A DNA stretch of 64,000 nt, taken from positions 1,364,001 to 1,428,000 of the forward strand of contig NZ_CP022188.1 of assembly GCF_003111665.1 (NCBI RefSeq). The letters run 5' to 3'. The position numbers and the translations under genes were made by a program. Below the pieces are notes generated by a model that was not told the DNA's origin, ran no database searches, and worked only from the letters and a program-made list of their open reading frames with translations. Positions 41,376 through 57,808 of this stretch are shown piece after piece. The first letter of the stretch is position 1; every line of letters begins with the position of its first letter. This stretch comes from Parazoarcus communis (GTDB lineage Bacteria; Pseudomonadota; Gammaproteobacteria; Burkholderiales; Rhodocyclaceae).

Positions 41376-41376
41376 T

Positions 41377-41410
41377 GCATGTGCCCGTGGTGTGGAGCCC
41401 GGGCACATGC
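41377..41410. terminator. Hairpin after the small ORF
   Basis: GCATGTGCCCG (41377-41387) and CGGGCACATGC (41400-41410) form a perfect 11-bp stem with a 12-nt loop, starting 2 nt after the stop codon of the 56-aa ORF. No U-tract follows. Confidence 0.6.
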
Positions 41411-41414
41411 GGTT

Positions 41415-41449
41415 CCCGAACACCCGCGGAGGGCCCGCCGGTGTTCGGG
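41415..41449. terminator. Bidirectional hairpin between the small ORF and leuA
   Basis: CCCGAACACC (41415-41424) pairs with GGTGTTCGGG (41440-41449); inside, GCGG (41426-41429) can pair with CCGC (41435-41438). It lies 14 nt from the leuA stop on the opposite strand, so it probably ends leuA transcription and backs up the previous hairpin. Confidence 0.65.
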
Positions 41450-41462
41450 CTGACGTTGCCGT

Positions 41463-43163
41463 TCAGGCTGCCTGCGCGACCGGGTTGCCGGCGGCAGCCG
41501 GGTCCAGCCGGTTTACACCGCTGACGATGGCGCGAATGGACGCAGTGACGATGTTGGTGTCGATGCCGACGCCATAGCAGTCGATACCGCCACTGGCCCC
41601 CGAGAGTTCGACGAAGGCGCAGGCTTGCGCATTGCCGCCGTCCTCGCTCGGGGCCACCGAGCGCTCCTCGAAACTGCGTACCTGAACGTCGATGCCGACG
41701 GTGCGCAAGGCATGCACTGCGGCATCGATCGGGCCGTTGCCTTCACCGGCCAGCATGTGCCGCGTGCCGCTGATCTCGACCACGAGGCGGATGCCCTGTG
41801 CAGCGCCATGCTCGAACAGGTGATGCTCGCAATAGCGCACCGGTGTGTCGGTCTCGAGATAGGTGTGCGAGAACAGCCCCCAGATGTCGGCTGCCGCCAT
41901 TTCACCGCCGCTCGCATCGGTCACTTTCTGCACTTCGCGTGAAAACTCTACCTGCAGGCGACGCGGCATGGCGATGCCGTATTCGGTTTCGAGCAGGTAG
42001 GCGATGCCGCCCTTGCCCGACTGGCTATTGACCCGGATCACCGAGTCATAGCTGCGGCCGACATCGGCCGGGTCGATCGGGAGATAGGGTACGTTCCACG
42101 GGGCGCCGGCCTTTTGAGCAGCGAATCCCTTCTTGATGGCGTCCTGGTGGGAGCCGGAGAAGGCCGTGAATACGAGATCCCCCACATAGGGGTGGCGTGG
42201 ATGGATCGGGAGCTGGTTGCAGTACTCGACGGTGCGTGCAACCGCGTTGATATCGGAGAAATCGAGCCCCGGGTTGATGCCCTGGGTGTAGAGGTTGAGC
42301 GCGAGGGTGACGATGTCCACGTTGCCCGTGCGCTCGCCGTTGCCAAAGAGACAGCCTTCCACGCGGTCGGCGCCCGCCATGAGACCGAGCTCGGCGGCGG
42401 CGACGCCCGTGCCGCGGTCGTTGTGCGGGTGCAGGCTGAGGATGACGCTGTCGCGACGGGCGAGATTGCGGTGCATCCACTCGATCTGGTCCGCATAGAT
42501 ATTGGGCGTGGCGACCTCGACCGTGGCCGGGAGGTTGAGGATCACCTTGTTGTCGGGCGTCGCGCCCCACTCAGCCGTGACCGCATCGCACACCTCGACA
42601 GCGAAGTCGATCTCGGTGGCGGAGAAGGTTTCCGGGCTGTATTCGAGCATGAACTCGGTTTCAGGCTGCTCGGCGGCGAGCTGCTTGATCATGCGCACGG
42701 CCGATACGGCGAGCGCGATCACTTCGGGCTTGCTCATGCCGAACACGACGTCGCGGAAGGTCGGCGACGTTGCGTTATAGACGTGAATGATGGCGCGCGG
42801 CGCACCGCGCACCGATTCCATGGTGCGGCGGATGAGGTCTTCACGCGCCTGGGTGAGCACTTCGATGGTGACGTCGGCGGGAATGTGACCGCCCTCGACG
42901 AGCTGACGCACGAAGTCGAAGTCGGTTTGCGAGGCCGAGGGGAAGCCGACCTCGATCTCCTTGAAGCCAATCTCGCACACGGTGCGGAACATACGCATCT
43001 TGCGCTCGACGTTCATCGGCTCGAACAGCGCCTGGTTGCCGTCGCGCAGGTCGGTGCTCATCCAGATCGGTGCCTTGTCGATGACGCGGCTCGGCCACTG
43101 ACGGTCGGCGAGCCGGATCGGTGCAAAGGGACGGTACTTGGTGGCTGGATCCTGCAACATCAT
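41463..43163 (-). CDS. leuA: 2-isopropylmalate synthase
   Basis: 566 aa, the long LeuA form. Catalyses acetyl-CoA plus 2-oxoisovalerate to 2-isopropylmalate, first step of leucine synthesis. TIM-barrel motifs are clear: [13 protein letters not shown] near 35-47 (metal Asp), [16 protein letters not shown] near 68, [17 protein letters not shown] with metal His residues and [14 protein letters not shown]. The C-terminal regulatory LeuA domain ([20 protein letters not shown]) gives leucine feedback control. The start is ATG 43163, with GAGGAAC upstream; a longer frame to 43223 is not conserved. Convergent with the small ORF. Confidence 0.97.
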
Positions 43164-43473
43164 GGCGTGTTCCTCGATCTGTCTGAGCCCTGAGGCGATA
43201 GGGAGAATCTTACGCAGGAGCACGCGGCAGACGATTGCAAGTTCGGGACAAAATCAGATTGAATGGAGAAGAAAATTTCGTATTTTGTGCAGGAAACAGA
43301 ATATTGTGCACTCAAGACGGGATTCACTGATTTTCCGTGTGTAAGATCGTCATTGCGCGTGTGATTTCGTTCGTGATGACAGGTCGATTTCCGCCCTTGC
43401 TGCGACGGTGTCCGCTCCTTCCTGTCCTGCCGGGGCATTGGCTTGTGGCGTGCAGCCGTGTTAGAAGTTACTA
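43164..43473. promoter_or_regulatory. 310-bp AT-richer divergent promoter region of leuA and the sigma-54 activator
   Basis: Noticeably lower GC than its surroundings. It contains two direct TTGTGCA copies 19 nt apart (43285-43291 and 43304-43310). No sigma-54 -24/-12 box is visible here, so the activator gene itself is probably sigma-70 dependent. No leader peptide rich in Leu codons was recognised before leuA. Confidence 0.5.
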
Positions 43474-45087
43474 ATGGAGCAAGCACAGCCTACCGAGTCC
43501 GATCTGGACAGTTCCCCCTCGTTCTGGCGCGAACAGGAAATGCTGCTGATGCAGCAGATCATGGGCCTCGTCGGCAAGAGCCTTTCGCCCGATGTCGTCT
43601 TGCGCGAGACCCTGCATTTGCTGTCGGAACTGCTCGGCCTCAACCGCGGGCGAATCGTCCTGCTCGACGATGACGGCAAATCGAGCCGGATTCGCTACGC
43701 CTACGGCCTGACCCGGCATGAGGTCGAGCGCGGGTGTTATCTGCCCGGAGAAGGCGTCACCGGGGCGGTGCTGGCGCACGGTCAGCTCATCATCGTGCAG
43801 GACATCGATCGTGACGAGAACTTCCTTGGGCGTGCGGTCGAGCGTGAAAGTCTGCCTTCAGGGCCGGTCTCCTTCATTGCCTTGCCTATCCGCATCGAGC
43901 AGAAAACCATCGGCGTGCTGGCCTGTCACCGCATTCGCACGCGCAGCCGCGCGCTTGCCGACGACCTCTCGATCCTGCGCATCCTGGCCACGCTCGCAGG
44001 GCAGTTGTTGCAGCTGCAGGCGATGCTCGAGGCCAAGACCCGCGAACTTGAGCAACAGAACCAGATCCTGATTCATGCCCTCGAGCACGAGACCGCCCGC
44101 TACGGGATCATCGGCACGTCGCCCCCGCTGCTGCGGGCAATTTCCGAGCTGGAGAAGGTGTCGGACTCGACTGCGAGCGTGCTGCTGCTGGGTGAATCGG
44201 GCACGGGCAAGGAGCTTTTTGCGCGCGCCCTGCACCTTGCAAGTCCGCGCCGCGACGCGCCTTTCATCAAGGTGAATTGCGCGGCGATCCCCGATACCTT
44301 GTTCGAGTCCGAACTGTTTGGCTACGAGCGTGGCGCATTTACCGGCGCCAGCACGAACCGCGAGGGACTGTTCGAGCAGGCTAACCGGGGCACGATCTTT
44401 CTCGACGAGATCGGCGAACTCCCGCTATCGATGCAGGGCAAATTGCTGCGCACTTTGCAGGAAGGCACGATCACTCATCTTGGCGGCAAGCGCGAGATCC
44501 GCATTGACGTCCGCCTCGTGGTGGCGACGAACCGCGATCTCGAAATGGAGGTGGCCCGGGGGCTGTTCCGGCAGGATCTTTACTATCGCCTGAACGTGAT
44601 TCCCATCCGGCTGCCTTCACTGGCGGAGCGCAAGGGCGATATTCGTGCCTTGGCCCTCAATTTCATGAGCCGGGCCAACCAGACAAACCAGCGCAGCGTG
44701 AACCTGACCCAGGAGGCGATTGCCAGGCTGGAAGCGTACTCATGGCCGGGCAATATCCGCGAACTGTCGAACCTGATCGAGCGCATCGTCCTGCTGGCCG
44801 AGAAGCCGATCGTTGGCCTCGCCGACATCGAGAAATTCATGCCCAGCGGCGAAGCAGTGTCGGCAGCGAAGGCGCTGGTCGAGTCCGCTCCGGGTGCAGG
44901 AGCGGCTGCGCACTCGGGCACCTTTCCGAACGTTCGCCCCTACGCGCCCGCAGGATCACATTCGGAAGCCGAGTTGCGCCAGGCGCTGGCCCAGTGTGGG
45001 GGAAACAAGTCGCGCGCAGCACAGGCGCTGGGCATGACTGCGCGTCAGTTTGCCTATCGCTGGCAGAAGCTGGCGCTGGATGCGTGA
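43474..45087 (+). CDS. Sigma-54-dependent activator (GAF-AAA+-Fis HTH), CynF-like
   Basis: 537 aa. N-terminal GAF sensor at about 25-185, coiled linker, AAA+ domain at about 210-440 with Walker A GESGTGKE (240-247), the sigma-54 contact GAFTGA (287-292) and Walker B FLDEIGE, a linker, and a Fis-type HTH at about 497-534 ([20 protein letters not shown]). The layout is NifA/FhlA-like with no REC, so a small molecule or metal centre in GAF is sensed. It directly precedes a perfect sigma-54 promoter and the cyanate genes; in Pseudomonas pseudoalcaligenes cynF, of this class, controls cynABDS. Confidence 0.93.
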
Positions 45088-45142
45088 TGGATCCGACTGG
45101 AAGGACAGCGATCGCCCGCGCCTGAAGTGTTCACAAAATGTC

Positions 45143-45192
45143 GACATTGTTAACAATGTCAGTGACTGTCATCAGATGCTCAAACGATGACA
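45143..45192. promoter_or_regulatory. Upstream activator palindromes for the sigma-54 promoter
   Basis: GACATTGTTAACAATGTC (45143-45160) is a perfect 18-bp palindrome. A second inverted pair, TGTCATC (45167-45173) and GATGACA (45186-45192), follows. They lie about 65-110 bp before the -24 box, the normal distance for enhancer sites bound by the Fis-type HTH of sigma-54 activators. Binding by the adjacent activator is inferred. Confidence 0.7.
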
Positions 45193-45223
45193 ATCACATC
45201 AATAATCGTCATGTTTTGATAAA

Positions 45224-45236
45224 AATCAACGAATTA
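45224..45236. promoter_or_regulatory. IHF consensus site
   Basis: AATCAACGAATTA matches the IHF consensus WATCAA-N4-TTR exactly and lies between the upstream palindromes and the -24 box, where IHF bends DNA to bring activator and polymerase together. Confidence 0.7.
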
Positions 45237-45254
45237 AAAAGTTTTTTGTTCTTC

Positions 45255-45269
45255 TGGCACGGTCGTTGC
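45255..45269 (+). promoter_or_regulatory. Sigma-54 (-24/-12) promoter
   Basis: TGGCACGGTCGTTGC matches the consensus TGGCACG-N4-TTGC at every defined position with correct GG/GC spacing. Expected transcription start is near 45281, about 70 nt before the OsmC gene. It should drive OsmC and the genes behind it when the activator at 43474 is triggered. Confidence 0.9.
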
Positions 45270-45350
45270 GATAGGGATGTCGAGTCCATCGAATTTGCGA
45301 TGTACCGAGTGCGGTAGCAAATCCGCCGTCCAATTCCCCAGGAGAACGCC

Positions 45351-45905
45351 TTGACGACCACGACCCTTAATCCCCAAACCGTCAAAACCCAGCTTCGTCC
45401 GATCGATCGCGACGGGCTGTTGAAATTCGCCGCTTCGGGTCGCGAGAACCCCGAGCGCCGCGGTACCAACAAGGTTCATACCGTAATGCAGGGGCAGTTC
45501 CGCTCGTGGAGTTTTGTCGGGATCCATAACCCGGTGGTGGTCGATGAGCCCCTGCACCTGTTTGGCGAGAACACCGCACCGGCACCGGGCGAAATCGTCC
45601 TCTCCGCGCTCGGCGGCTGTCTCAGTGTCGGCATCACGGCTGTGGCCACCCATCGTGAGGTCAAGCTGTCGCGCCTCGAGGTCTTTCTCGAAGCCGACAT
45701 CGGCAATTCGGCCGCCTGGGGTGCCGGTGGCGCGGAGCGCAAGCCCGAAGAGATGGGTTTCCAGGACATCCGGGTCAAGGTCGTGATCGAGGGCGATGCC
45801 AGCCGCGAAGAGCTCGACGACATCGTCAAGCATGCGAACTACTACTCGCCGGTCGCGAACACGATGCGCAACCCGATTCCTTTCACCATCGGCCTGGCCG
45901 ACTGA
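45351..45905 (+). CDS. OsmC-family protein, resolving Cys replaced by Ser
   Basis: 184 aa. Start TTG 45351 is supported by AGGAGAACGCC directly upstream; no ATG fits. OsmC/Ohr fold with Cys90 in SALGGCLSVGITAVATHREV. The second active-site Cys of OsmC/Ohr peroxidases, normally in CPV-NTL, is Ser166 here (YYSPVANTM). It is therefore not a standard two-Cys peroxidase; it may act as a thiol carrier, sulfur-handling or one-Cys protein. It is the first gene after the sigma-54 promoter. Confidence 0.87.
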   Translation: MTTTTLNPQTVKTQLRPIDRDGLLKFAASGRENPERRGTNKVHTVMQGQFRSWSFVGIHNPVVVDEPLHLFGENTAPAPGEIVLSALGGCLSVGITAVATHREVKLSRLEVFLEADIGNSAAWGAGGAERKPEEMGFQDIRVKVVIEGDASREELDDIVKHANYYSPVANTMRNPIPFTIGLAD

Positions 45906-45949
45906 GGGCCCCACGCCTCGTCCAGCCAGCCTTAACCGGAGAAAAAGCC

Positions 45950-47092
45950 ATGAATCCTGCCGATGAAAGCCAATCTGTGTTCGAACCGTCGTGGACCGAT
46001 GCACAGGTCATGGAACGCGTGACTGCGGTTGCAAACGGTCCGTTGTCCGATGCGGCGTACCGTATCGATCACGAAGGCCACTATCCGCTCGAGATCATGG
46101 CCTCACTCGGCCGGGCGGGGGCGTTTGGCGCCCACCTTGAAGACAGCGGCTGCCGCTATGGCCTCGCCATCGACGCGATGCGCGCAATCAGCCGCAGCTG
46201 CGGATCGACCGGGTTCCTGACCTGGGCTCACGATGTATGCGGCCTGTACATGGAGCAGTCGGGCAACCCGGCGCTGACTGGCGAGATGCTGCGCGCTCAC
46301 ACGCTCGGCGAGACCTTCGGCGGGACGGCGCTCTCCAACCCGATGAAGGCGCTTGCCGGCATCGAGAAGATGCTGCTGCGTGCCACCAAGGTGGCCGGTG
46401 GCTACCGGGTGAGCGGCGCGCTGCCCTGGGTCAGCCACATTGCCCCGGGGCAGTACTGTGGCGCGATTGCAGCGGTCTATCGTGACGACGGCAGCCGTTC
46501 GCACGAGATCATGTTCATGCTGCGTTGCACCGAAGACGTCGTGCTGCGCGCGTGTCCGGAGTTTTCGGGCATGGAGGGCACGAGCACCTGGGGCGTCCGT
46601 CTCGACAACCTCTTTGTTGGCGAAGACGACATGATCGCCGACCCCGCCAAGCCCTTCATCGCCCGCATCCGGGCAGCCTTCGTGCTGCTTCAGGCCGGTA
46701 TCGCGGTGGGGGTGGCGCAGGGCAGCATCGATTCGATGAGGGAGGTGGAGCCGCTGCTTGGGCATGTGAACAGCTTCCTGCACGACCGCCCCGATGAACT
46801 GCAGGCCGAGTTCGACGAGCTTGGCGCGCGGGTGGCGAAGCTTGCGCTGACGCCCTACGACGGAAGCAAGGACTATCTTCTCGATGTGCTCGATGCCCGC
46901 ACCCAGGGTGCCGAGTTCGCGCTGCGCGCGTCGCAGTCGGCCCTCATGCATCAGGGCGCGCGCGGCTACCTGATGAGTTCAGGGCCTCAGCGCCGTATCC
47001 GCGAGGCGCACTTCGTTGCCATCGTGACCCCCGCAATCAAGCATCTGCGCTGGGAGATGGATCGTCTGTCGCGCGAGGAGATGCCGGCATGA
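45950..47092 (+). CDS. Acyl-CoA dehydrogenase-fold flavoprotein
   Basis: 380 aa. Acyl-CoA-dehydrogenase superfamily: helical N-terminal domain, middle beta domain ([20 protein letters not shown] near 150, [20 protein letters not shown] near 205-224) and C-terminal helical domain. The C-terminus ([20 protein letters not shown]) lacks the YEGT region and obvious catalytic Glu of true dehydrogenases, as in flavin monooxygenase or SfnB/DszC-type relatives. With the rubredoxin-reductase fusion next to it (4-nt overlap), a reduced-flavin oxidative reaction on a non-CoA substrate is plausible. The substrate is unknown. Confidence 0.82.
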
Positions 47093-48435
47093 ACGCATCG
47101 ACATCCGCGTGGAAGCAATTCATCTGCCGCGCCTGCGGCCTGATCTACGACGAAGAAAAAGGCGATCCCGATAGCGGACTGGCGCCCGGAACCCGCTTCG
47201 AGGACATCCCCGACGATTGGGAGTGTCCGCTGTGCGGCGTCATGAAGAACGATTTCGAGCCGTACGCCGGACTCGAAATGGAGAGCCCCGCATGTGCATC
47301 CGTCGCGGTCTCCCGCACTGCGGGTGTCGTCATCGTCGGTGCCGGCATTGCCGGCTGGTCGGTTGCGGAGGCGGTTCGCGCGCTTGATCCCGAAATCGGA
47401 ATCACGCTGGTGAGTGCCTGTAACGGAGATCGCTATCACAAGCCGGAGTTGTCGATTGCGCTGAGCCGGGGGCATGCGCCTGAAGACCTGGTGCGCGAAA
47501 GTGCAGCTGCAGCGGCCGCGCGTCTGGGTGTGCGCTTGCTGGCCGACACCTGTGTGGTCGGCCTGTCGCCCGCGCTGCACCAGTTGCGTACGTCCCGTGG
47601 AACGCTTCAATTCACGAAACTGGTGCTTGCGCAGGGTGCGCGTCCGGCGCTGCCTGCCGCCTTGCCTGCCGACGTGTGCTGGCGGGTCAACAACCTTGCC
47701 GGTTGGTCGGGGCTGCGCGCCAGGCTGGTATCGGGAAAGCGTCGCGTTACAATCATCGGCGCCGGCATGGTGGGCTGCGAACTTGCAGAAGACTTTGCCC
47801 GTGCCGGCCACGCCGTGACCTTGCTCGACCTGCAGGCCACGCCGCTGGCGGCCTTGCTGCCGCCGCTCGCCGGCGAGCGCCTGCGCCTGAGTCTTGAAGC
47901 GCTTGGTGTCGAATTCATTGGTTCGGCGCAGGTTGCTTCAGTCACCCCTGCGGCGGATGGCAGCAAGCACATCGTCACTGCCGGCGGCCTCCGCATCGAT
48001 GCCGACGAGGTTGTCGCGGCAACCGGCCTGGTCACCGAAGACCGCATTGCGCGCGCTGCAGGGCTCGAGTTCGAGCGCGGCATCGTGGTTGATCCGGTCA
48101 GCATGCAAACCAGTGCCAGCGACGTGTATGCGCTGGGCGACTGCGTCAGCCTGGTCGGCATGCCCTGCCGCTTCATCGAGCCGATCGCCAAACAGGCCGC
48201 CGCCATTGCGCATGACCTGCTTGGCCGTCAGCACCCGGGCTATGCGCATGTTCAACCCGTGATACGGCTCAAAACGAAATCGCTTCCGGTCGTGGTGCAT
48301 GGCTTGCCCTGCGCGGACGGGGAGTGGGTGGTGGTCGAGGAAACCGCCGACATGTTGCGCATGAACCAGCGACGCAACGGTGAGGTGGTGGCAAGGCTGG
48401 AGGCAGGTAGCCTGCGCCAGCGCCTTGCCGCCTGA
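47089..48435 (+). CDS. Rubredoxin fused to NAD(P)H rubredoxin reductase
   Basis: 448 aa. Residues 8-58 are a rubredoxin with two Cys pairs ([13 protein letters not shown] and [13 protein letters not shown]). From about 75 an FAD/NAD reductase follows with dinucleotide motifs [16 protein letters not shown] and [20 protein letters not shown] and the FAD-closing [10 protein letters not shown]. It is a self-contained NAD(P)H-to-rubredoxin electron chain, cytoplasmic. ATGA overlap with the flavoprotein upstream suggests that it is the electron donor. Confidence 0.92.
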
Positions 48436-48493
48436 CGCCGCCAGCATTCGAACGACAACAGATTTTTCCCTTCCAGAGAAAAGGTGCCCAGCC

Positions 48494-49876
48494 ATGAAAG
48501 ACGAAAACCTCTATCGCCCCTATGCGGCCGATGTCGCACTCGGTCGCTGCTCCTGTGGTCAGCATGGCAGCCAGCACGAACATGATGCCGAAGCGGCACG
48601 CGCGCGCAGCCTGCGCGGCGAGAAGGCCGAAAGCCTCTCCACCGATTTCGTTGAAGCCGCGCTGGTGCGTGCGATATTCCCGCAGGACGCGACCCGTCGC
48701 CGGTTTCTGAAGGCGGTTGGCGCCAATGCGGCGATGGCCGCGATTGCCAGCATGATGCCGATTTCCGACCTCCAGGCCATGACGCTGGAGAAGGCCGGGC
48801 CGCTGGAGAAGAAGGATCTGACGGTGGGCTTCCTGCCCATCACCTGCGCGACGCCGATCATCTTTGCCGGCGCCGCCGACTTCTATGGTCGTGAAGGGCT
48901 GAACGTCACGCTGCAGAAGACGGCAGGCTGGGCGATTGTGCGCGACAAGGTGCTGGCGAAGGAATTCGACGCATCGCACATGCTGTCGCCAATGCCGCTG
49001 GCGATCTCGCTCGGCGCAGGCTCGACCGCGGCGCCGATGGTGATGCCGGTGATGGAGAACATCAACGGCAACGCCATCACCCTCCATGTAAAGCACAAGA
49101 ACAATCGCGACCCCCGCAACTGGAAGGGCATGAAGTTCGCGATCCCGTTCGATTACTCGATGCACAACTTCCTGCTGCGTCACTACCTTGCCGCCCATGG
49201 TCTGGACCCGGACAAGGATGTGCAACTGCGCGTGATGGCACCGCCCGACATGGTTGCGAACATGCGCTCCGGAAACCTCGACGGCTTCATCGTCGCCGAG
49301 CCGTTCAACCAGCGCGCGGTCTATGAGAAGGTCGGCTTCATTCACCTGCTGACGAGCCAGATCTGGGACAACCACCCGTGCTGCGCCTTCGCTGCGACCG
49401 AGGATTTCGTCAACCAGAACCCCAACACCTTCGCAGCGCTCGTGCGCTCGATCATCGGTGCCACCGCATACGTCAACAAGGCCGAGAACCGCAAGGGCGT
49501 GGCCGAGATGATCGCGCCGGCGAACTACCTCAACCAGCCGCAGACCGTCGTGGAGCAGGTGCTGGTGGGGCGCTATGCCGATGGTCTTGGTCATGTGCTC
49601 AGCGAGCCCAACCGGATTGCGTTCGATCCCTTCCCCTGGCATTCGATGGGGGTGTGGATGCTGACGCAGATGAAGCGCTGGGGCTACATCAAGGGCGAAG
49701 TGAATTACCAGGACATCGCCGAGCGCGTGTATCTCGCCACCGATGCGAAGAAGCGCATGGCCGAGCTTGGGCTGGAGGCGCCGGCGCAGACTTACAAGAA
49801 GCACATGATTCTGGGCAAGGAGTTCGATCCTGCACAGCCCGAGGCCTACCTGAAAGGCCTTTCAGCCGGGGCGTGA
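48494..49876 (+). CDS. cynA: Tat-exported ABC binding protein of the nitrate/cyanate family (CynA/NrtA-like)
   Basis: 460 aa from ATG 48494. A long N-terminal stretch with a CSCGQHGSQHEHD Cys/His patch (about 19-31) precedes a twin-arginine signal ATRRRFLKAVGANAAMAAIA near 66-85, so a folded protein is exported. The mature part has the NrtA/CmpA fold (VGFLPITCATPIIFAGAADF; WDNHPCCAFAATEDFV). The long leader before the RR motif is typical of NrtA relatives. It is followed by permease, ATPase and cyanase, so cyanate is the inferred ligand. Confidence 0.88.
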   Translation: MKDENLYRPYAADVALGRCSCGQHGSQHEHDAEAARARSLRGEKAESLSTDFVEAALVRAIFPQDATRRRFLKAVGANAAMAAIASMMPISDLQAMTLEKAGPLEKKDLTVGFLPITCATPIIFAGAADFYGREGLNVTLQKTAGWAIVRDKVLAKEFDASHMLSPMPLAISLGAGSTAAPMVMPVMENINGNAITLHVKHKNNRDPRNWKGMKFAIPFDYSMHNFLLRHYLAAHGLDPDKDVQLRVMAPPDMVANMRSGNLDGFIVAEPFNQRAVYEKVGFIHLLTSQIWDNHPCCAFAATEDFVNQNPNTFAALVRSIIGATAYVNKAENRKGVAEMIAPANYLNQPQTVVEQVLVGRYADGLGHVLSEPNRIAFDPFPWHSMGVWMLTQMKRWGYIKGEVNYQDIAERVYLATDAKKRMAELGLEAPAQTYKKHMILGKEFDPAQPEAYLKGLSAGA

Positions 49877-49908
49877 CGCCGGACCCACTCCATAACAGAG
49901 AGACCATC

Positions 49909-50019
49909 ATGTCAGCCAGTTCGCAACGACTCAACATCCGCCCGGATGCGCCGGAACTGTCCCGTCAGCACGGATGGGCAGACGTCCTTTCACCCTGCGG
50001 CAAGGGGGTGCGGCCATGA
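49909..50019 (+). CDS. 36-aa ORF overlapping the cynB-like start
   Basis: ATG 49909, with GAGAG upstream, encodes MSASSQRLNIRPDAPELSRQ and 16 more residues, and its TGA overlaps the permease ATG (ATGA). It could be a translational-coupling leader, or the displaced N-terminal tail of the permease separated by a frameshift, since NrtB-type permeases often carry such a polar tail. I cannot decide between these. Confidence 0.4.
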   Translation: MSASSQRLNIRPDAPELSRQHGWADVLSPCGKGVRP

Positions 50020-50858
50020 ACAAGCACCTGCCTATTCGTGCCGCACTGCTGTCGCTCGTGCTCTTTGCCTGCTTCATTGGCATCTGGCATTACGCGACGC
50101 TGCCGTCGGACAATGTAGTGGTGTCCGCCGCCGACGCGGAATACGCCGCCCTGATGGGGCAAGGCGCGGGCAAGGCCGAGGGCTTTCCGACGCCGTCGGC
50201 GGTCGGGCGCACCTTCGTGCATTTCCTGTCCGACCCCTTCTACGACAATGGCCCCAACGACAAGGGGATCGGCATCCAGATCGCCTACTCGCTGATGCGT
50301 GTCGGCGCGGGATTCTTCCTCGCCACCCTGGTGGCCCTGCCGCTTGGATTCATCATCGGCATGTCGCCGCTGATGACGCGGGCGCTCAACCCCTTCATCC
50401 AGGTACTCAAGCCGATCTCGCCGCTGGCGTGGATGCCGCTGGCGCTGTACGTGCTGAAGGACTCGGACGTGTCGGGCATCTTCGTCATCTTCATCTGCTC
50501 GATGTGGCCGATGCTGCTCAACACCGCGTTTGGTGTCGCGTCGGTGCGGCGCGACTGGATCAACGTGGCGCGCACGCTCGAAGTGGGCCCGATGCGCAAG
50601 GCCTTCCAGGTCATCCTGCCGGCGGCAGCGCCGACCATTCTGACTGGCATGCGCATCTCCATGGGCATTGCCTGGATCGTCATCGTCGCAGCCGAGATGC
50701 TGGTCGGCGGAACGGGGGTCGGCTATTTCGTGTGGAACGAGTGGAACAACCTCGCCCTGCCTAACGTGATCTTTGCAATCACCATGATCGGCCTCGTCGG
50801 CATGCTGCTCGACTTCGCCTTCGGTGTGTTGCAGAAGATGGTCACCTACCGGGACTGA
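50016..50858 (+). CDS. cynB: ABC permease of the cyanate/nitrate transporter (CynB/NrtB-like)
   Basis: 280 aa from ATG 50016, with GGGGGTG upstream. Six hydrophobic helices; the first is AALLSLVLFACFIGIWHYAT. The EAA loop WINVARTLEVGPMRKAFQVI near 180 and the downstream IAWIVIVAAEMLVGGTGVGY are characteristic of NrtB. It pairs with the ATPase 4 nt downstream. An in-frame ATG at 49974 exists but would add a short arginine-rich leader. Confidence 0.9.
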   Translation: MNKHLPIRAALLSLVLFACFIGIWHYATLPSDNVVVSAADAEYAALMGQGAGKAEGFPTPSAVGRTFVHFLSDPFYDNGPNDKGIGIQIAYSLMRVGAGFFLATLVALPLGFIIGMSPLMTRALNPFIQVLKPISPLAWMPLALYVLKDSDVSGIFVIFICSMWPMLLNTAFGVASVRRDWINVARTLEVGPMRKAFQVILPAAAPTILTGMRISMGIAWIVIVAAEMLVGGTGVGYFVWNEWNNLALPNVIFAITMIGLVGMLLDFAFGVLQKMVTYRD

Positions 50859-50862
50859 TGCC

Positions 50863-51792
50863 ATGACCAATCATTATCTCAGCGTGGAAGGCCTGAAAAA
50901 GGCTTATCCGACCAGTGACGGAAAAGTCGGTACGCCGGTTTTCGAAGACATTCATTTTTCAATCGAAAAGGGCGAGTTCGTCTGCATCATCGGGCATTCG
51001 GGTTGTGGCAAGACGACGATCCTGAATGTGCTTGCCGGCCTCGAAGAGGCTTCGGGCGGCGTGGTCATCATGAATGGCCGCGAGGTCAAGGGACCGAGCC
51101 TGGACCGTGGGGTGGTGTTCCAGAGCCACGCCCTGATGCCGTGGATGTCGGTGCTCGGTAACGTGGCGTTTGCGGTGAAGTCGAAGTGGCCGGACTGGTC
51201 GAAGGCGAAGATCGCAGCACACTGCACCGAATACCTCGAAATGGTCGGACTCGGGCATGCCATCCACAAGCAGCCGGCCGAACTGTCCGGGGGCATGAAG
51301 CAACGCGTAGGCATCGCCCGCGCATTTGCGATCCAGCCCAAGATGCTGCTGCTCGACGAGCCCTTCGGCGCACTCGATGCGCTGACCCGCGGCACCATTC
51401 AGGACGAGTTGCTGAAGGTCGTGCAGGCCACGCACCAGACCGTTTTCATGATCACCCACGATGTGGACGAAGCCATCCTGCTCGCCGACAAGGTGATCCT
51501 GATGAGCAACGGTCCCCTGGCGAAGGTTGCCGAGATCGTCGAGATCACGATGCCGCGCAACCGCACCCGCGCCGAAATGCATCACGACCCGCAGTACTAC
51601 CGGATTCGCAATCACCTGGTCGACTTCCTCGTCAATCGATCGAAGGACTATGCAGGTGGCGGCGAGCTCGCCCAGTACGACCCGAAACACCCGCCGGTGG
51701 TGCGCCCGGGGCTGGCCGAGGAGCAACAGGCCGCACTGGCGCCCGAAACCGCACGTCCGGTCCCGCAGCTCAAGAAAGTTGTTAATCAGTAG
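50863..51792 (+). CDS. cynD: ABC ATPase of the cyanate/nitrate transporter (CynD/NrtD-like)
   Basis: 309 aa from ATG 50863. Walker A GHSGCGKTT, Q-loop VVFQSHALMPWM, signature LSGGMKQRVGIARA, Walker B MLLLDEPFGALD and the switch His in MITHDVDEAI. The extra 60-residue C-terminal tail (YYRIRNHLVDFLVNRSKDYA onward) is as in NrtD. Next is cyanase 20 nt away. Confidence 0.93.
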   Translation: MTNHYLSVEGLKKAYPTSDGKVGTPVFEDIHFSIEKGEFVCIIGHSGCGKTTILNVLAGLEEASGGVVIMNGREVKGPSLDRGVVFQSHALMPWMSVLGNVAFAVKSKWPDWSKAKIAAHCTEYLEMVGLGHAIHKQPAELSGGMKQRVGIARAFAIQPKMLLLDEPFGALDALTRGTIQDELLKVVQATHQTVFMITHDVDEAILLADKVILMSNGPLAKVAEIVEITMPRNRTRAEMHHDPQYYRIRNHLVDFLVNRSKDYAGGGELAQYDPKHPPVVRPGLAEEQQAALAPETARPVPQLKKVVNQ

Positions 51793-51812
51793 TTTCCTCA
51801 AGGAGAGATCAC

Positions 51813-52256
51813 ATGAACCGCAATGACGTTACCGAAATGATCGTGGCCGCCAAGATTGCCAAGGGCATCAAGTGGGCGGATGTGGCCGTAAAGATCGGCC
51901 TGGCAAAGGAGTGGGTGACCTCGGCCTGTCTGGGGCAGATGGCTTTCACCGCGGAACAGGCTGCGATTGTTGCCGACATCTTCGCCTTGCCGCCCGAGGC
52001 CATTCCCGTGCTGCAGGCCGTGCCCTACAAGGGTTCGCTGCCGACTGCCGTGCCGACCGATCCGCTGATCTACCGTTTCTACGAGCTCATCAGCGTGTAT
52101 GGCACGACCTTCAAGGAGCTTATCCACGAAGAATTCGGCGACGGCATCATGTCGGCGATCGATTTCAAGATGGACCTTCAGCGCGAGCCCCACCCCGCCG
52201 GTGACCGCGTCAGCATCAACATGTCCGGCAAGTTCCTGCCGTACAAGACCTACTGA
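51813..52256 (+). CDS. cynS: Cyanase (cyanate hydratase)
   Basis: 147 aa. Decomposes cyanate with bicarbonate to ammonia and CO2. Catalytic Arg88, Glu91 (PLIYRFYELISVYG) and Ser114 (FGDGIMSAIDF) correspond to Arg96, Glu99 and Ser122 of the E. coli enzyme with a constant offset of 8. N-terminal HTH-like domain and C-terminal decamerisation domain are both complete. AGGAGAG precedes the ATG. The placement right after the ABC genes identifies the substrate of the importer. Confidence 0.97.
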   Translation: MNRNDVTEMIVAAKIAKGIKWADVAVKIGLAKEWVTSACLGQMAFTAEQAAIVADIFALPPEAIPVLQAVPYKGSLPTAVPTDPLIYRFYELISVYGTTFKELIHEEFGDGIMSAIDFKMDLQREPHPAGDRVSINMSGKFLPYKTY

Positions 52257-52270
52257 TCGACGCCTGTTCG

Positions 52271-52306
52271 CGGATCGGTGGTGCGGCGTTTCGTACCACT
52301 GATCCG
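52271..52306 (+). terminator. Hairpin after cynS
   Basis: CGGATCGGTGGT (52271-52282) pairs with ACCACTGATCCG (52295-52306), a 12-bp stem with one G-U wobble and a 12-nt loop, 14 nt after the cyanase stop. There is only a weak T content behind it, so it may reduce rather than stop read-through to the MBL gene. Confidence 0.6.
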
Positions 52307-52373
52307 TGCGTTGGCCTTCGGTCCGTTGCTTCAAGGCAATGCACAACATCCATAAATCAGCAGGACATTCTTC

Positions 52374-53237
52374 GTGAAGACGCTCGCAGAGCCATTCTTC
52401 GACGCCGCATCGGGTACGTTCAGTTACGTGGTGTACGCCGGTGCCGGCTGCGAATGCGCAATCATCGACCCGGTGCTTGGTTTCGATCCGGTCTCGGGGC
52501 GTACGTCCACCAGCGGTGCCGACCGGATCATCGACTTCGTGCGCGCCCGCGCGCTGAAGGTCGAGTGGCTGCTCGAAACGCATGCGCATGCCGATCACCT
52601 GTCTGCCGCGGCCTATCTGCGCAGTGTGCTTGGCGGCAAGGTGGGCATCAGCGCCCGTATTCGCGAGGTTCAGCAGGTCTTTCACGACGTCTATGATCTG
52701 GGGCCGGGATTCAGCTGCGAGGGCACGCAGTTCGACCACCTCTTTGCGGCGGACGAGTGCTTCAGCATCGGTCCGCTTCCGGCGCAGGCGCTGCACGTGC
52801 CCGGTCACACGCCAGCAGACATTGCTTACCAGGTCGGTGACGACACGGTGTTCGTCGGCGATACGCTGTTCATGCCCGATGTCGGCACGGCACGGTGCGA
52901 TTTTCCGGGGGGCGATGCCGCCACCCTGTATCGCTCCATCTGCCGTCTGCTGGCGCTGCCTGCCAGTACTCGCCTGTACCTGTGCCATGACTACCCGACG
53001 GCAGGGCGCGAGGCATGCGGCCTCAGCAGCGTGGCGCAGCAGCGGGCACAGAACATTCATGTCGGGGATGGCATCACCGAGCCGGCGTTCATTGCCATGA
53101 GAACGCAGCGCGATGCCACCCTGGATCTGCCGCAGCTGATGCTGCCCGCGATACAGGTAAACATCCGCGCAGGCAATCTGCCGCCCCCGGGGAGCAACGG
53201 GGTGCGCTACCTGAAAATCCCGCTCGATCTGATGTAA
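52374..53237 (+). CDS. MBL-fold protein resembling persulfide dioxygenase
   Basis: 287 aa from GTG 52374. Metallo-beta-lactamase fold with THAHADHLSAAAYL (about 69-82), a later metal His in VPGHTPADIAYQ, the Asp in VFVGDTLFMPDVGTARCDFP and His in YLCHDYP. The DVGTARCDFPGGDAATLYRS stretch is a marker of ETHE1/Blh persulfide dioxygenases, which oxidise glutathione persulfide to sulfite. The C-terminal 70 residues are an extension. It stands 117 bp behind cynS and before a methyltransferase, suggesting sulfane-sulfur handling in this island. Confidence 0.85.
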   Translation: MKTLAEPFFDAASGTFSYVVYAGAGCECAIIDPVLGFDPVSGRTSTSGADRIIDFVRARALKVEWLLETHAHADHLSAAAYLRSVLGGKVGISARIREVQQVFHDVYDLGPGFSCEGTQFDHLFAADECFSIGPLPAQALHVPGHTPADIAYQVGDDTVFVGDTLFMPDVGTARCDFPGGDAATLYRSICRLLALPASTRLYLCHDYPTAGREACGLSSVAQQRAQNIHVGDGITEPAFIAMRTQRDATLDLPQLMLPAIQVNIRAGNLPPPGSNGVRYLKIPLDLM

Positions 53238-53253
53238 CACGGACAGGTGATCA

Positions 53254-53898
53254 ATGGGTCAGTCAATGCAATCCCGGGCGCACTGGGAGAAGGTCTACTC
53301 GGACGTTCCCGCCGAAGGCGTGAGCTGGTTTCAGGATCACGCGCTGCGTTCCCTTCGCCTCATCCGCGAGACCGGCCTGCCGCGATCGGCAGCGGTGCTG
53401 GATGTAGGCGGCGGGGCATCGACGCTGGTCGACGATTTGCTGCGGGAGGGCTATTCGGCACTCACCGTGCTTGACCTCTCGGAAGCGGCGCTCGCGGTCG
53501 CCAGGGCACGGCTCGGCGAGTCTGCGCACACGATCAACTGGGTGGCAGCGGATATCACGAACGCCGGTCTGCCCAGCCAATCCATCGACATCTGGCACGA
53601 CCGCGCTGTTTTTCATTTCCTGACCACGGCGCAGGAACGCCATGCCTATATCGAGACCGTACTGCGGGTGGTGAAGCCCGATGGCCACGTGATCGTCGCG
53701 ACCTTTGCCGAAGATGGACCGACAAAGTGCAGCGGGCTGCCGGTCATGCGCTACAGCGCCAGTGAATTGCATGCAACGTTCGGCGCACCGTTCGAACTGC
53801 TTGCACATGAACGGGAGGCGCACGCGACGCCCTCGGGTGCGGTTCAGCAGTTCGTCTATTGTCATTGCCGTCGAACGGGATCTGCGGCAAGGGTGTGA
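53254..53898 (+). CDS. Class I SAM-dependent methyltransferase
   Basis: 214 aa. Motif I AVLDVGGGASTLVDDLL near 47-63, acidic loop LTVLDLSEAAL near 70-80, motif II VAADITNAGL and the post-motif WHDRAVFHFLT near 112-122. The N-terminal HWEKVYSDVPAEGVSWFQ is typical of a bacterial family of small-molecule methyltransferases. It is 16 nt after the MBL gene, so co-transcribed. Methylation of a thiol, thiocyanate or cyanide-derived product is a guess from the neighbours only. Confidence 0.85.
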   Translation: MGQSMQSRAHWEKVYSDVPAEGVSWFQDHALRSLRLIRETGLPRSAAVLDVGGGASTLVDDLLREGYSALTVLDLSEAALAVARARLGESAHTINWVAADITNAGLPSQSIDIWHDRAVFHFLTTAQERHAYIETVLRVVKPDGHVIVATFAEDGPTKCSGLPVMRYSASELHATFGAPFELLAHEREAHATPSGAVQQFVYCHCRRTGSAARV

Positions 53899-54006
53899 TC
53901 CCGGCTGAGTCGCAGTTGGTCAGGCCGGTGATTTTTTCGCGATCAGTGCATTGAGCTCGGGTTTGATGCAAGAATCTGCCGATTGAAACGCGATCGGAGA
54001 CATTGC

Positions 54007-54483
54007 ATGCAGCTCGACCGCTACGACCGCCAGATCCTCGAGGTGTTGCAGGACGAAGGCCGTATCAGCAATCAGGACCTTGCCGACCGCATCAGCCTGT
54101 CGCCTTCGTCGTGTCTGCGCCGGGTGCGCACGCTGGAAGAGTCCGGCCTGGTCACCGGCTACCGCGCCATGCTCGATGCGCGCAAGCTCGGCCTGTCGCT
54201 GATGGCGCTGATCTACATTTCGATGGACCGTCATACGCCCGAGCGCTTCGTCAATTTCGAGTCGCAGGTTGCGGCCATCCCCGAGGTCCTCGAGTGCCTG
54301 CTGATTACCGGTCAGGAAGCCGACTATCAGCTCAAGGTGGTGGTGGCCGACATGGACGCCTATCAGGAGCTGCTGCTCAACCGCCTGACCCGCATTGCCG
54401 GCGTGACGGGCGTGCACTCGAGCTTCGTCCTGCGCCGGGTGATCGACAAGACTGCGCTGCCACTGGGGCCGGGGGCGGCCTGA
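54007..54483 (+). CDS. Lrp/AsnC-family transcriptional regulator
   Basis: 158 aa from ATG 54007 (GGAG 7 nt upstream). HTH at about 3-60 (DRQILEVLQDEGRISNQDLA then LSPSSCLRRVRTLEESG), C-terminal RAM ligand domain (TGQEADYQLKVVVADMDAYQ). It binds an amino acid and probably controls the adjacent DMT exporter, a frequent Lrp/exporter pairing. A longer in-frame start at 53983 is less supported. Confidence 0.92.
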   Translation: MQLDRYDRQILEVLQDEGRISNQDLADRISLSPSSCLRRVRTLEESGLVTGYRAMLDARKLGLSLMALIYISMDRHTPERFVNFESQVAAIPEVLECLLITGQEADYQLKVVVADMDAYQELLLNRLTRIAGVTGVHSSFVLRRVIDKTALPLGPGAA

Positions 54484-54590
54484 GTCACTGCGGGCATTGG
54501 CATGCTATGTTCGCCGGCCTGAATCCGTCCGTAATGACATGGCGATCTGCGCCCATGCAGCGGCGGTAGGGTCTCGAGCGGAAAATCGAT

Positions 54591-55541
54591 ATGTGGCTTG
54601 GTGTCCTGTACGCCCTCGGCGCAGGTTTGTTGTGGGGGCTGGTGTTTGTCGGCCCCATGCTGCTGGAGGAATATCCTCCGGCCTTGCAGGTGGTCGGGCG
54701 TTATCTCGCCTTTGGTCTGATTGCACTGCCACTGGCGTGGATTGACCGCCGGAGCCTGGCGCGGCTGACGCGTGCCGACTGGAAGGATGCGCTCAAGCTG
54801 GCGGCGATCGGCAACCTTCTTTACTACTTCCTTCTGTCCAGTGCGATTCAGCGCGCCGGCGGCCCCTTGCCGACGATGCTGATCGGCACCTTGCCGGTGG
54901 TGATCGCCATCGTGTCGAACCTGCGTAACGGCGATCGGGACGGGCGCCTGCCGTGGTCGCGGCTGGCCTTGCCCCTGCTGGTGATCGCCGTCGGAATTGC
55001 CTGTGTCAATCAGGTGGAGTTGGACGCATTGCGTGCGGACGCCGATGCCGATTCTGGGCGCTACCTCCTGGGGGGCGTGCTCGGTCTGGGCGCGGTGGTG
55101 TGCTGGACCTGGTATCCGATCCGCAATGCGGACTGGTTGCGCGAGCATCCAGGCCGCAGCCCGCGCGTATGGGCGACGGCTCAGGGGCTGGCCACGCTGC
55201 CGCTGGCGCTGGCGGGCTACGTATTGCTGTGGGGCGGAATGGCGCTTTCCGACAGCAGCTTTCCCATGCCGCTCGGGCCGCGGCCGGCCTTCTTTCTTGG
55301 TCTGATGCTTGCGATTGCGCTGCTCGCCTCCTGGCTCGGCACGCTGTGCTGGAATCAGGCCAGCCAGCGCCTGCCCACGGCGATGGTGGGTCAGCTGATC
55401 GTTTTCGAAACCCTTGCTGCGCTGAGTTACGCCTACATCCTGCGCGGCGTCTGGCCGGAGCCACTGACGCTGGCCGGCATTGCCTTGCTGATCGCCGGGG
55501 TGGTGACGGCGGTTCGTGTGCGCCCTCAATGCCCCGGTTGA
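54591..55541 (+). CDS. DMT-superfamily (EamA) transporter
   Basis: 316 aa with ten hydrophobic helices in two EamA repeats. The repeats start GVLYALGAGLLWGLVFVGPM and LLGGVLGLGAVVCWTWYPIR. A polar loop of about 20 residues joins them near 140. Inner-membrane carrier, often exporting amino acids or related metabolites. It follows the Lrp gene by 107 bp and probably is its target. Confidence 0.88.
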   Translation: MWLGVLYALGAGLLWGLVFVGPMLLEEYPPALQVVGRYLAFGLIALPLAWIDRRSLARLTRADWKDALKLAAIGNLLYYFLLSSAIQRAGGPLPTMLIGTLPVVIAIVSNLRNGDRDGRLPWSRLALPLLVIAVGIACVNQVELDALRADADADSGRYLLGGVLGLGAVVCWTWYPIRNADWLREHPGRSPRVWATAQGLATLPLALAGYVLLWGGMALSDSSFPMPLGPRPAFFLGLMLAIALLASWLGTLCWNQASQRLPTAMVGQLIVFETLAALSYAYILRGVWPEPLTLAGIALLIAGVVTAVRVRPQCPG

Positions 55542-55663
55542 TCGATTGCATTGCGTGAGAATGTTCCCGTGACTGCTATGCGTAAAGTGATAACCTTGGC
55601 CCCGATAAGGACTTTGCCGGGCGAGATACGGTGTGCGTGTGCCGTCCCGGCCGGAGTGGTGTC

Positions 55664-57808
55664 ATGTTCAAGAATCCTGTTGCAGCCGTCATCGGATTGA
55701 TCCTGTTGAGCGCGTTGCTCCTGGCTACATCGCTGGTGTATCGCCACGAGTCCGAACCCGTCTTGAGCAATGGAGGGGCGCCTGCCGCAATCGATGTGCT
55801 GCGTTTCGGCCATAACATTCCTGAAGACAGTGCCTTGCATCAGGCGGCGGCGCGCTTTGCAGCGCTTGTTGCCGAGCGTAGCGGCGGACAGCTGCAGGTG
55901 GAGGTTTTTCCCGCCCAGCAGCTCGGTACCGACGATCAAATGCTGGAGATGGCGCGTCGTGGCGAACTCGACATCCTGCTGATCCCGACAGCCAAGGTGA
56001 GCGTGTCGGTGCCCGCCATGCAGTACGCAGACCTGCCATTCTATTTTCCTGCGCGCGAAGACCTGTACGACATGCTCGACGGCGAGCCCGGTCAGATTCT
56101 GCTCGGAAAGTTGCGCGACATTGATCTGATCGGTGTCACCTTCTGGGAGAACGGATTCAAGCACTTCACCGCAAACAGGCCGCTGCGCAGCCCCGCGGAT
56201 TTTGCGGGCATGAATATCCGCATCATGAAAAGCCGCCTGCTGATGAAACAGTTCCATGCCTTCGGGGCGCATTCGATTCCGATCGACTTTCATGCGACCC
56301 GCCAGGCGCTGGCCGATCAGGCTGTGGATGGCCAGGAGAATCCCCTGGTGGCGATCGTCAGCATGGGCCTGCACGAGGTGCAGTCGCACCTTACATTGAG
56401 CAGCCACGGGTATCTGGGCTACATCTTCATGATCAGTGCGCAGGTGTTTGACCGCCTGTCCGCGAACGAACAGAAGTTGTTGATCGACACCGCGCGTGAA
56501 TTGACGCCATGGGAGCGCGCCGAAACCCGTCGGCGCGAGGAGGCGCTGCTCGAGACCATTCGGCAGTCTGGTGTCTCGATCCATCAATTGACCGCACAGG
56601 AGCGGGCACAGTTTGCGGCTGCGACCGAGCACATTCCAGGCATTTTCGAGGAGGTGATCGGCGCCGATGTGCTGTCCCTGTCCGAGGAGTTGCTTGATCG
56701 CAAGTATGGTCGTGGTGATGAAATTGTCGTCGGGCTGGATGCCGATCTCTCGCAGGAGTGTCGCAGCGCCGGTCTGGGCTTCAGGCGCGGAGCGGCACTG
56801 GCGATCGACGAGATCAACGCGTCCGGCGGCGTGCTGGGCAAGAAGCTGAAACTGATTGCACGCGATCACAAGGGCTTGCCAAGTCTGGGCGTGAGCGACA
56901 TGGAATATTTCGCCTCCCGTCCGGATGTGGTCGGTGTGCTTGGAGGCGTGCAGTCCAGCGTCGCAGTGGCACAAGGCGATGTCGTGCGCCGGGCCGGGCT
57001 GCCTTTCGTCGTGCCCTGGGCGGCTGCCTCGGAGGTGATTGCCCTGGATCGCGCGGCCGATCCGGTATTTCGCGTGTCTGCTTCCGATACGCTTGTTGCG
57101 CCTTTCGTGATTGAGCACGTACTTCGCCATGGCCGGCGGCCGGCCATTCTGTTCGAGAACTCATTGTGGGGACGCGGCAACCTTGAGTCGATGCGCACGC
57201 AGCTCAAGGAACGGGGGCTCGATTTCGTGGCGGCAGAGAGCTTCAATCGGGGTGAGACCAATTTCGAGCTGCTGGTGTCCCGGGTGGAGCAAGGCCGCGC
57301 GGATGTACTGATGATGATCGCTGCGCCCGATGAGGGCGGGCGGATTGTGAAGCGCCTGGCCGAGCGTGGCGTGCTGACGCGCGTCGTATCGCACTGGGGC
57401 ATCAGCTGTGGCGATTTCTGGGGCGACAACAGCGAGGCTTTGGCAAAGGTGGATCTCAGCTTCTTCCAGACCTTCACCTTTGTCGGCAACAGCCGAGCCG
57501 CGAGCCGGGCGCTGGAGCAGCGCTACCGTGCCCGTTACGCGCTGGACGCAAACCAGGATGTTCCGGTGCCGCAGGCCGTTGCGCAGGCGTATGACAGCGT
57601 ACATCTTCTTGCATTGGCGGTTCAGCAGGCAGGGACGACCGAGCATGCCGCGGTGCAACGCGCCCTCGAATCCCTGCCACCCTTCGAGGGCGCGGTGCGA
57701 CGGTATGCGCCGGCCTTCTCGCCCCGGCGCCACGACGCAATGGGGGTTGAGAACTTTCATATGGCACGTTATGCGAGCAATGGTGCAATCGTGCGTGCCG
57801 ACCAATGA
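55664..57808 (+). CDS. Periplasmic DctP-like domain fused to a type-I periplasmic-binding domain
   Basis: 714 aa from ATG 55664 (GGAG 8 nt before). N-terminal signal anchor at about 8-28 ([20 protein letters not shown]). Residues about 45-345 are a TRAP DctP-type binding domain ([40 protein letters not shown]). Residues about 365-700 are a Leu/Ile/Val-receptor-like domain ([40 protein letters not shown]). The two solute-binding folds in one chain are unusual. Its stop overlaps the hybrid kinase start (ATGA), so it is a sensory input, not transport: no permease adjoins. Probably anchored facing the periplasm. Confidence 0.88.

Follow-up and report, generated by a model that had tools for sequence, protein, structure and literature searches.

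The closest described counterpart of the locus reported here is the cynFABDS cluster of Pseudomonas pseudoalcaligenes CECT5344, in which a sigma-54 activator (CynF), the ABC transporter CynABD and the cyanase CynS are combined under sigma-54 promoter control; the published account of the cluster (PMC6627978, section 2.1) gives glutamate synthase and hemE as neighbours, and the strain has no OsmC, flavoprotein or rubredoxin genes there, as the initial annotation of our sequence had held. The same cyn components occur in the window, i.e. the whole 64,000-nt stretch of Parazoarcus communis DNA analysed here (within one contig of 4.89 Mb, NZ_CP022188.1), but there three redox genes lie between activator and transporter, namely those of an OsmC-family protein, of an acyl-CoA-dehydrogenase(ACAD)-fold flavoprotein (FLAV) and of a rubredoxin/reductase fusion (rubR), hereafter called the trio (OsmC-FLAV-rubredoxin genes). 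Whereas in CECT5344 cynF is divergent and the promoter precedes cynA (PMC6627978), the activator gene of the window is co-directional and the promoter precedes osmC. We propose, as an evenly balanced reading, that the trio may be a cyanate-generating front end for the cyanase, with thiocyanate as its most likely substrate.

Heterotrophs that use thiocyanate as nitrogen source are known, and the entry enzymes given for them in the relevant passages of PMC5328954 and PMC5778177 are thiocyanate hydrolase and a copper dehydrogenase only. The latter, thiocyanate dehydrogenase (TcDH; it is also the 'thiocyanate desulfurase' of PMC8061750), is known from Thioalkalivibrio and its relatives as part of their cyanate pathway (PMC5328954, PMC5744179, PMC6504805) and is like our proposal in the net conversion of SCN- to OCN- plus sulfur. 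Its operon is described as having a sigma-54 Fis-family regulator (PMC6504805, PMC5744179), and the window cluster, too, has a sigma-54 activator. According to these accounts, however, TcDH is an exported copper enzyme of lithotrophic sulfur oxidisers that uses cytochrome c, whereas the window encodes a flavoprotein with a rubredoxin/reductase partner, and cyanase alone is described as no marker of the thiocyanate cyanate pathway (PMC6504805, PMC5328954). Thiocyanate hydrolase (ScnABC), the enzyme of the carbonyl sulfide pathway, would likewise release ammonia and sulfur from thiocyanate, but hydrolytically and without cyanate, and the window's genome gave no match to PF02979 (NHase_alpha) or TIGR03887 (ScnC), TcDH not having been searched for. 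Among 105 genomes of the phylum, TIGR03887 had 13 matches, none of them over the cut-off, and Cupriavidus pampae has a match to the NHase_alpha family; Herbaspirillum frisingense GSF30, a carrier of the trio (L061), has none. On plasmids of Roseomonas marmotae and Azospirillum ramasamyi (L260, L261), thiocyanate hydrolase genes lie near a TauE/SafE exporter; that no ABC transporter is listed beside them at these two loci is uninformative.

In the open-licence literature we found no description of the trio combined with cyn genes, which is no proof of novelty, and in the cyn literature searched no conserved cyanate-producing module upstream of cyanase. The wider claim would be that heterotrophs among the alpha-, beta- and gammaproteobacteria possess an undescribed flavin- and rubredoxin-dependent system for the oxidation of thiocyanate to cyanate, in which OsmC is a dedicated sulfur acceptor; after the copper TcDH and thiocyanate hydrolase, this system would be the third thiocyanate route. 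We put this forward tentatively, with somewhat less than even confidence. If true, it would assign a function to genes next to cyanase that at present carry the names 'acyl-CoA dehydrogenase', 'OsmC' and 'FAD-dependent oxidoreductase', and explain the source of cyanate for some cyanases. Thiocyanate, a pollutant, would then be usable as nitrogen source by a new route, and its removal from mine and coking waters could be followed by a genetic marker. Even with cyanide or another cyano compound as substrate, the module would be one that the cyn literature searched does not describe. To our knowledge, rubredoxin would also be a new electron donor among ACAD-fold flavoproteins.

The locus (43474-53898) comprises ten open frames, all on the + strand and of the families named in the initial annotation (Pfam/NCBIfam), and its nearest named relative is that of Azoarcus sp. 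L1K30 (FLAV 94% identical). Its features are as follows, in window positions:

43474..45087, + strand: GAF-AAA-Fis sigma-54 activator, NifA/NorR-like enhancer-binding protein (Pfam Sigma54_activat, GAF, HTH_8; NCBIfam NifA/NorR below cut-off)
45143..45160, no strand: 18-bp perfect palindrome GACATTGTTAACAATGTC, proposed activator site (sole window match to ACATTGTNNACAATGT at up to 2 mismatches, 0.05 expected)
45255..45270, + strand: predicted sigma-54 (-24/-12) promoter TGGCACGGTCGTTGCG before osmC (one mismatch to the searched consensus)
45351..45905, + strand: OsmC-family protein with a single conserved Cys, C90 (PF02566; start TTG 45351 behind AGGAG)
45950..47092, + strand: FLAV, ACAD-fold flavoprotein without the canonical catalytic Glu (start ATG 45950; Pfam ACAD N-terminal domain)
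47089..48435, + strand: rubredoxin fused to a NorW-like rubredoxin reductase (PF00301, PF07992; start overlaps the FLAV stop by 4 nt)
48494..49876, + strand: CynA/NrtA-like substrate-binding protein (PF13379, NMT1_2)
50016..50858, + strand: CynB/NrtB-like permease (TIGR01183 above cut-off)
50863..51792, + strand: CynD/NrtCD-like ATPase (TIGR01184 above cut-off)
51813..52256, + strand: CynS cyanase (TIGR00673 and NF002773 above cut-off)
52374..53237, + strand: ETHE1/PDO-type metallo-beta-lactamase (MBL), probable persulfide dioxygenase (PF00753; start GTG 52374)
53254..53898, + strand: S-adenosylmethionine (SAM) methyltransferase, accessory or bystander (PF08241)

From osmC to cynS the intergenic gaps measure -4 to 139 nt; those on either side are 263 nt (activator-osmC) and 117 nt (cynS-MBL). 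CynS, which scores 166.9 bits against TIGR00673 (cut-off 113.3 bits), is the only cyanase of the genome and is adjoined by the nitrate-type CynABD ABC transporter (NMT1_2, TIGR01183, TIGR01184).

The trio and cyanase across genomes

A pattern scan of one genome per species (84,980 species) gave 321 stretches encoding FLAV relatives, the best 80 of which are referred to as FLAV loci. The rubR gene follows FLAV immediately in 80/80 of them and osmC immediately precedes it in 77 (at L069 the contig begins just before FLAV, and at L077 and L084 osmC lies nearby on the opposite strand), so that a chance juxtaposition can be dismissed; the module is far more general than the one window. Also in view are a cyanase and a CynA-like binding protein (42 loci each), a different NMT1 binding protein, SBP13 (11 loci), and, counted together, an NMT1-type binding protein in 53 of the 80. 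The FLAV tree sets a clade of 110 sequences apart from the outgroup ACADs (support 0.80). Scattered over this clade are OsmC, activator and cyanase; its rubredoxin is fused, alone or absent. A second version of the module, with FLAV 30-39% identical, occurs in the window's own family at eight loci (L152-L154, L156, L158, L159, L161, L163). All eight have activator, FLAV, a standalone rubredoxin and CynA, seven have OsmC, six a cyanase in view and three (L152, L161, L163) a separate reductase-like frame, while L161 and L163 combine FLAV with CynBDS, OsmC and the separate reductase besides the standalone rubredoxin and CynA. The same parts, rearranged and unfused, speak for a joint function.

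Co-occurrence was counted in two evenly drawn samples of whole genomes, which share the window's genome (G000) and G403. In each genome, the four or five top candidates of a first look were scored for FLAV, using profile A1 at E<=1e-100 for the class sample (369 genomes) and profile A3 at E<=1e-70 for the phylum sample (398 genomes). In the class sample, FLAV is present in 10 genomes, every one of which is among the 50 with cyanase (Fisher 9e-10, uncorrected for relatedness); the phylum sample has 16 with FLAV, 69 with cyanase and 13 with both (Fisher 1.7e-8, likewise uncorrected). The two genes lie on one contig within ~10 kb in nine of the ten class-sample FLAV genomes and on different contigs in G480. 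Of the 38 FLAV loci with no cyanase in view, 30 were followed up by a search of the entire genome, which brought up a cyanase elsewhere for 27, at L050 only as a 31-position fragment; the three without (L053, L082, L105) are all metagenome assemblies, and most of the eight loci outside this search are on short contigs. Conversely, among 40 cyanase loci whose genomes had given no strict FLAV hit, 37 lack the module, the strict limit having missed the trio in the other three (L177, L184, L198). Genomes with FLAV nearly always have a cyanase, whereas most cyanase loci lack the module, an asymmetry that is expected of an upstream producer of cyanate. A trio found mostly apart from cyn genes, which the initial annotation had named as a refutation, is not what we observe; the three redox genes are a conserved unit, tied to cyanase both as neighbours and through joint presence in genomes.

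The surroundings of the trio vary. In Alcaligenaceae-type/Sheuella loci (L036, L039, L041, L044, L045, L047-L053, L055, L057, L111) it stands without activator or cyn genes in view, often with a malate/lactate dehydrogenase-family gene upstream and a cupin gene downstream; cynS is elsewhere in these genomes except for L053 (L050: fragment only). On the Moraxella osloensis plasmid pNP7-5 (L214 8172-8723), which shows no cyanase within 19 kb, a carboxymuconolactone-decarboxylase-family (AhpD-like) protein takes the usual place of OsmC before FLAV, and proteins of this family are also encoded near FLAV in L157 and L163. In the class sample, a DUF302 protein is encoded between FLAV and reductase in L165 (9087-9482) and L167 (14666-15241). 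A chromosome-sized Neisseria record (2.17 Mb) in the plasmid collection, L248, has a 41% FLAV relative and a rubredoxin-like match but, within 15 kb, no further query gene; G793 (L234) is alike. Two FLAV matches, G711 C1:35460-36521 and G1017 C1:4857755-4858852, contain one internal TGA each and may be broken copies, sequencing errors or matches with an extended end.

The three redox proteins

FLAV has the ACAD fold, its Pfam matches being to the ACAD N-terminal domain only. Its Thr360 is aligned to Glu369 of 1ws9, which we take to be the catalytic Glu (SCAD/MCAD position, i.e. of short- and medium-chain ACADs), and is invariant in 61/61 close relatives, with Thr or Ser in 18/18 distant ones. 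In residues 233-256, where the exact position equivalent to the isovaleryl-CoA dehydrogenase Glu is unaligned, no column is more than 30% acidic in A2 or A3. Given the replaced Glu, and given that the linkage to cyanase recurs in two genome samples, it is very improbable that FLAV is a true acyl-CoA dehydrogenase hitch-hiking beside cyanase. Its profile is weakly similar (E 6.8e-5) to the HSA hydroxylase oxygenase 2rfq, a Group D flavin monooxygenase; enzymes of this ACAD-fold group oxygenate by means of reduced flavin and have a flavin reductase as partner.

In the rubredoxin domain, the iron ligands Cys 13, 16, 46 and 49 (two CxxC) are invariant in 61 sequences, and the reductase part scores 235 bits, below the cut-off of 392, against the NCBIfam equivalog for NorW, the NADH:flavorubredoxin reductase. 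Chains of rubredoxin reductase, rubredoxin and oxygenase such as AlkT-AlkG-AlkB pass electrons from NADH via rubredoxin to a terminal oxidising protein, and the path proposed for the trio would be alike, except that the terminal protein AlkB is a di-iron hydroxylase whereas that of the trio would be an ACAD-fold flavoprotein.

In OsmC, C90 is conserved in 65/65 aligned sequences, and the window protein has no other Cys, Ser-Pro standing at the presumed place of the second one; it thus departs from the two-Cys OsmC/Ohr pattern. Its nearest solved structure is 2opl. OsmC is a member of a peroxidase fold, the reductase is NorW-like, and the Moraxella plasmid has the carboxymuconolactone-decarboxylase-family protein in OsmC's place, all of which would suit a protective module that handles peroxide, oxygen or reactive sulfur stress during the use of cyano compounds and makes no cyanate. 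With one conserved Cys in OsmC instead of two, with the module lacking at 37 of the 40 cyanase loci and with the association with sulfur genes left unexplained, however, we regard such a role as decidedly unlikely.

Sulfur genes and the candidate substrate

As sulfur genes we counted relatives of the window MBL, two TauE families and a two-domain rhodanese found beside the module. At least one is near FLAV in 33/80 FLAV loci (27 with MBL, 17 with TauE, 9 with rhodanese). A further set of 37 FLAV loci gave 13 (11 with rhodanese, 2 with MBL); this set consists of the loci retrieved as stretches and of three that were transferred from the controls ahead of counting, and it omits the FLAV genomes G454 and G565 of the class sample. 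Near cyanase without the module, by contrast, none was found in 37 control loci (window-type MBL likewise 0/37). The controls, with a median length of 19.9 kb (shortest 3.9 kb), are drawn from 39 of the 40 genomes that have a cyanase but no strict FLAV hit; looser limits bring up one control locus (L202) with a 26% identical MBL. Grouped at 80% FLAV identity, the 80 FLAV loci form 23 units; in 13 of these, one member or more has a sulfur gene, and in 7 the majority do. The recurrence of sulfur genes with FLAV, and not with cyanase alone, favours a sulfur-containing cyano compound as substrate.

Outside the window's class, eight phylum-sample loci (L237, L238, L242-L247) encode, next to FLAV and OsmC, a rhodanese with 63-65% identity to the query. 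In Pseudosulfitobacter, genes for OsmC, FLAV, sulfurtransferase and a DsbA-fold protein are consecutive (rhodanese 63% identical to the query). The CFKGAR loop of the rhodanese is kept in 6/6 sequences compared. Compared with solved structures, the window MBL scores 372 bits against 9g8t, 347 bits against 4ysk/4ysl, presumably the Pseudomonas persulfide dioxygenase, and 61 bits against ETHE1 4chl. Against the model of the sulfur-transferase-dioxygenase Blh it reaches 349.8 bits (cut-off 625) and aligns to positions 145-422 of 423, i.e. to the C-terminal part without the N-terminal part; at other loci a separate rhodanese is present. The initial annotation had assigned sulfur disposal to the MBL and the methyltransferase, and only the former fits: its relatives recur with FLAV and are absent from the controls, whereas the methyltransferase, found in 3/80 FLAV loci, is rejected as a member of the pathway.

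The following sequence of events can be imagined. The GAF-domain activator and sigma-54 would turn on one unit, presumably a single transcript from osmC at least to cynS, and the NMT1-type ABC transporter would bring in the anion. Electrons would pass from NADH through the rubredoxin-reductase fusion to FLAV, which in its reduced form may oxidise the anion, probably by means of O2; the likeliest anion is thiocyanate (SCN- to OCN-). The single Cys of OsmC could take up the released sulfane sulfur, or clear a reactive intermediate or peroxide. The sulfur would then be handed to a low-molecular-weight persulfide and converted to sulfite by the persulfide dioxygenase; in relatives, a rhodanese may take part and a TauE exporter may remove the sulfite. 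CynS would turn cyanate into ammonia and CO2, so that cyanase and persulfide dioxygenase would be the two outlets for cyanate and sulfane sulfur. Thiocyanate, the simplest sulfur-containing cyano anion, appears the most likely substrate; the absence of hydrolase matches (NHase_alpha, ScnC) from the window's genome and the TauE exporters on the two thiocyanate hydrolase plasmids also speak for this reading. At L167, a complete cynABDS and a second NMT1-type transporter lie beside the trio, which suggests that the substrate of the trio is not cyanate itself and is imported separately. The chemistry of the initial annotation, in which the trio makes cyanate from a thiocyanate-, cyanide- or isothiocyanate-like compound, is thus plausible and, with regard to sulfur, strengthened, albeit unproven.

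Cyanide is the main alternative substrate. The trio would then be a cyanide monooxygenase, consuming O2 and NADH to oxidise HCN (hydrogen cyanide) to cyanate, and the rhodanese and the persulfide dioxygenase would belong to a parallel or connected detoxification of cyanide to thiocyanate. Cyanide monooxygenase and cyanase are listed as a known reaction pair (PMC5778177), a rhodanese beside FLAV suits cyanide as well as thiocyanate, and the co-occurrence of FLAV and cyanase is explained equally. Yet HCN should need no ABC importer, and an NMT1-type binding protein, which may serve cyanate, is in view in 53/80 FLAV loci; persulfide dioxygenase and TauE exporter suit released sulfur better; and ten annotated neighbour clusters (the others being unannotated) include no nitrilase or cyanide-insensitive oxidase. 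On balance we consider cyanide unlikely. The same genomic evidence also fits another S- and N-containing compound, such as an organic thiocyanate, an isothiocyanate or a thiourea-like molecule, with cyanate as the inorganic end product, and the substrate may even vary, given the CynA-like (42/80) and SBP13-like (11/80) binding proteins and the FLAV genomes without cyanase. The NtrB/NtrCD-type transporter parts suggest a small anion, however, and few further gene clusters recur with the trio across clades (ten annotated); we rate such compounds as rather unlikely, though not negligible.

Several points weigh against thiocyanate oxidation by the trio. First, its tie to thiocyanate is a prediction from sequence and gene context. 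Methylorubrum thiocyanatum, which reportedly grows on thiocyanate and at first looked supportive, also encodes a thiocyanate hydrolase gamma subunit above cut-off. Second, the Fisher values ignore kinship among the genomes, and in a dedicated test 9 of 18 FLAV genomes, three of them from the phylum sample, have no cyanase. The FLAVs of these nine are 33-43% identical to that of the window, while equally distant FLAVs elsewhere do have a cyanase; an SBP13-type transporter adjoins FLAV in eight of the nine, and the product may differ there. Third, no sulfur gene is in view in 47/80 and 24/37 FLAV loci, and the 37 controls, some of them short contigs (down to 3.9 kb), are all of one class, whereas many FLAV loci are not. 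Fourth, the rubredoxin fusion, initially annotated as the electron donor of FLAV, follows it in all 80 FLAV loci but is not universal. Some OsmC-FLAV loci are without rubredoxin: seven of the eight OsmC-FLAV-rhodanese loci have no rubredoxin or reductase match in ~20 kb (the eighth, L244, has a match of 29% only), so that rubredoxin is no obligatory neighbour everywhere. Finally, we know of no precedent for an ACAD-fold flavoprotein fed by rubredoxin, and the electrons could therefore run the other way.

Promoter, palindrome and activator

The sigma-54 site before osmC is the only match in the window at up to one mismatch, a count not above chance (1 against 2.6 expected). In 76 of the 80 FLAV loci, over which promoter and palindrome were compared, a site with at least 11/12 scored positions precedes osmC in 50, as opposed to 0.4% of base shuffles (20 per locus). 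It is this conserved place before osmC, and not the window-wide count, that makes the promoter credible. Palindrome-like sites (up to 2 mismatches) are present within 320 nt before osmC in 37 of the 76 loci, and the 1.34 Mb compared contain 4 such sites outside this position. Since promoter and palindrome both sit in the 263-nt gap between activator and osmC, the activator is probably a transcription unit of its own.

An activator match (at least 40% identity over at least 50%) is encoded in 57/80 FLAV loci. Of the 27 cyanase loci that lie apart from the trio, 12 were examined: each has a sigma-54 site upstream of its cynA or cynS gene, and the palindrome is absent from all. An activator site common to the trio and separate cyn operons was thus not found in these 12, and the trio seems to own its enhancer site, for which the palindrome is the candidate. 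Identity alone does not clearly set a trio-specific clade of activators apart, with values of 43-46% at Marinobacter-type trio loci and 37-47% at cyanase-only loci.

No Rfam family was found over window positions 40000-56000. Downstream of the locus, a 725-aa frame (55631-57808) combines two families of binding proteins in a single chain, with a DctP solute-binding domain at 59-334 and a Peripla_BP_6 domain at 365-717.

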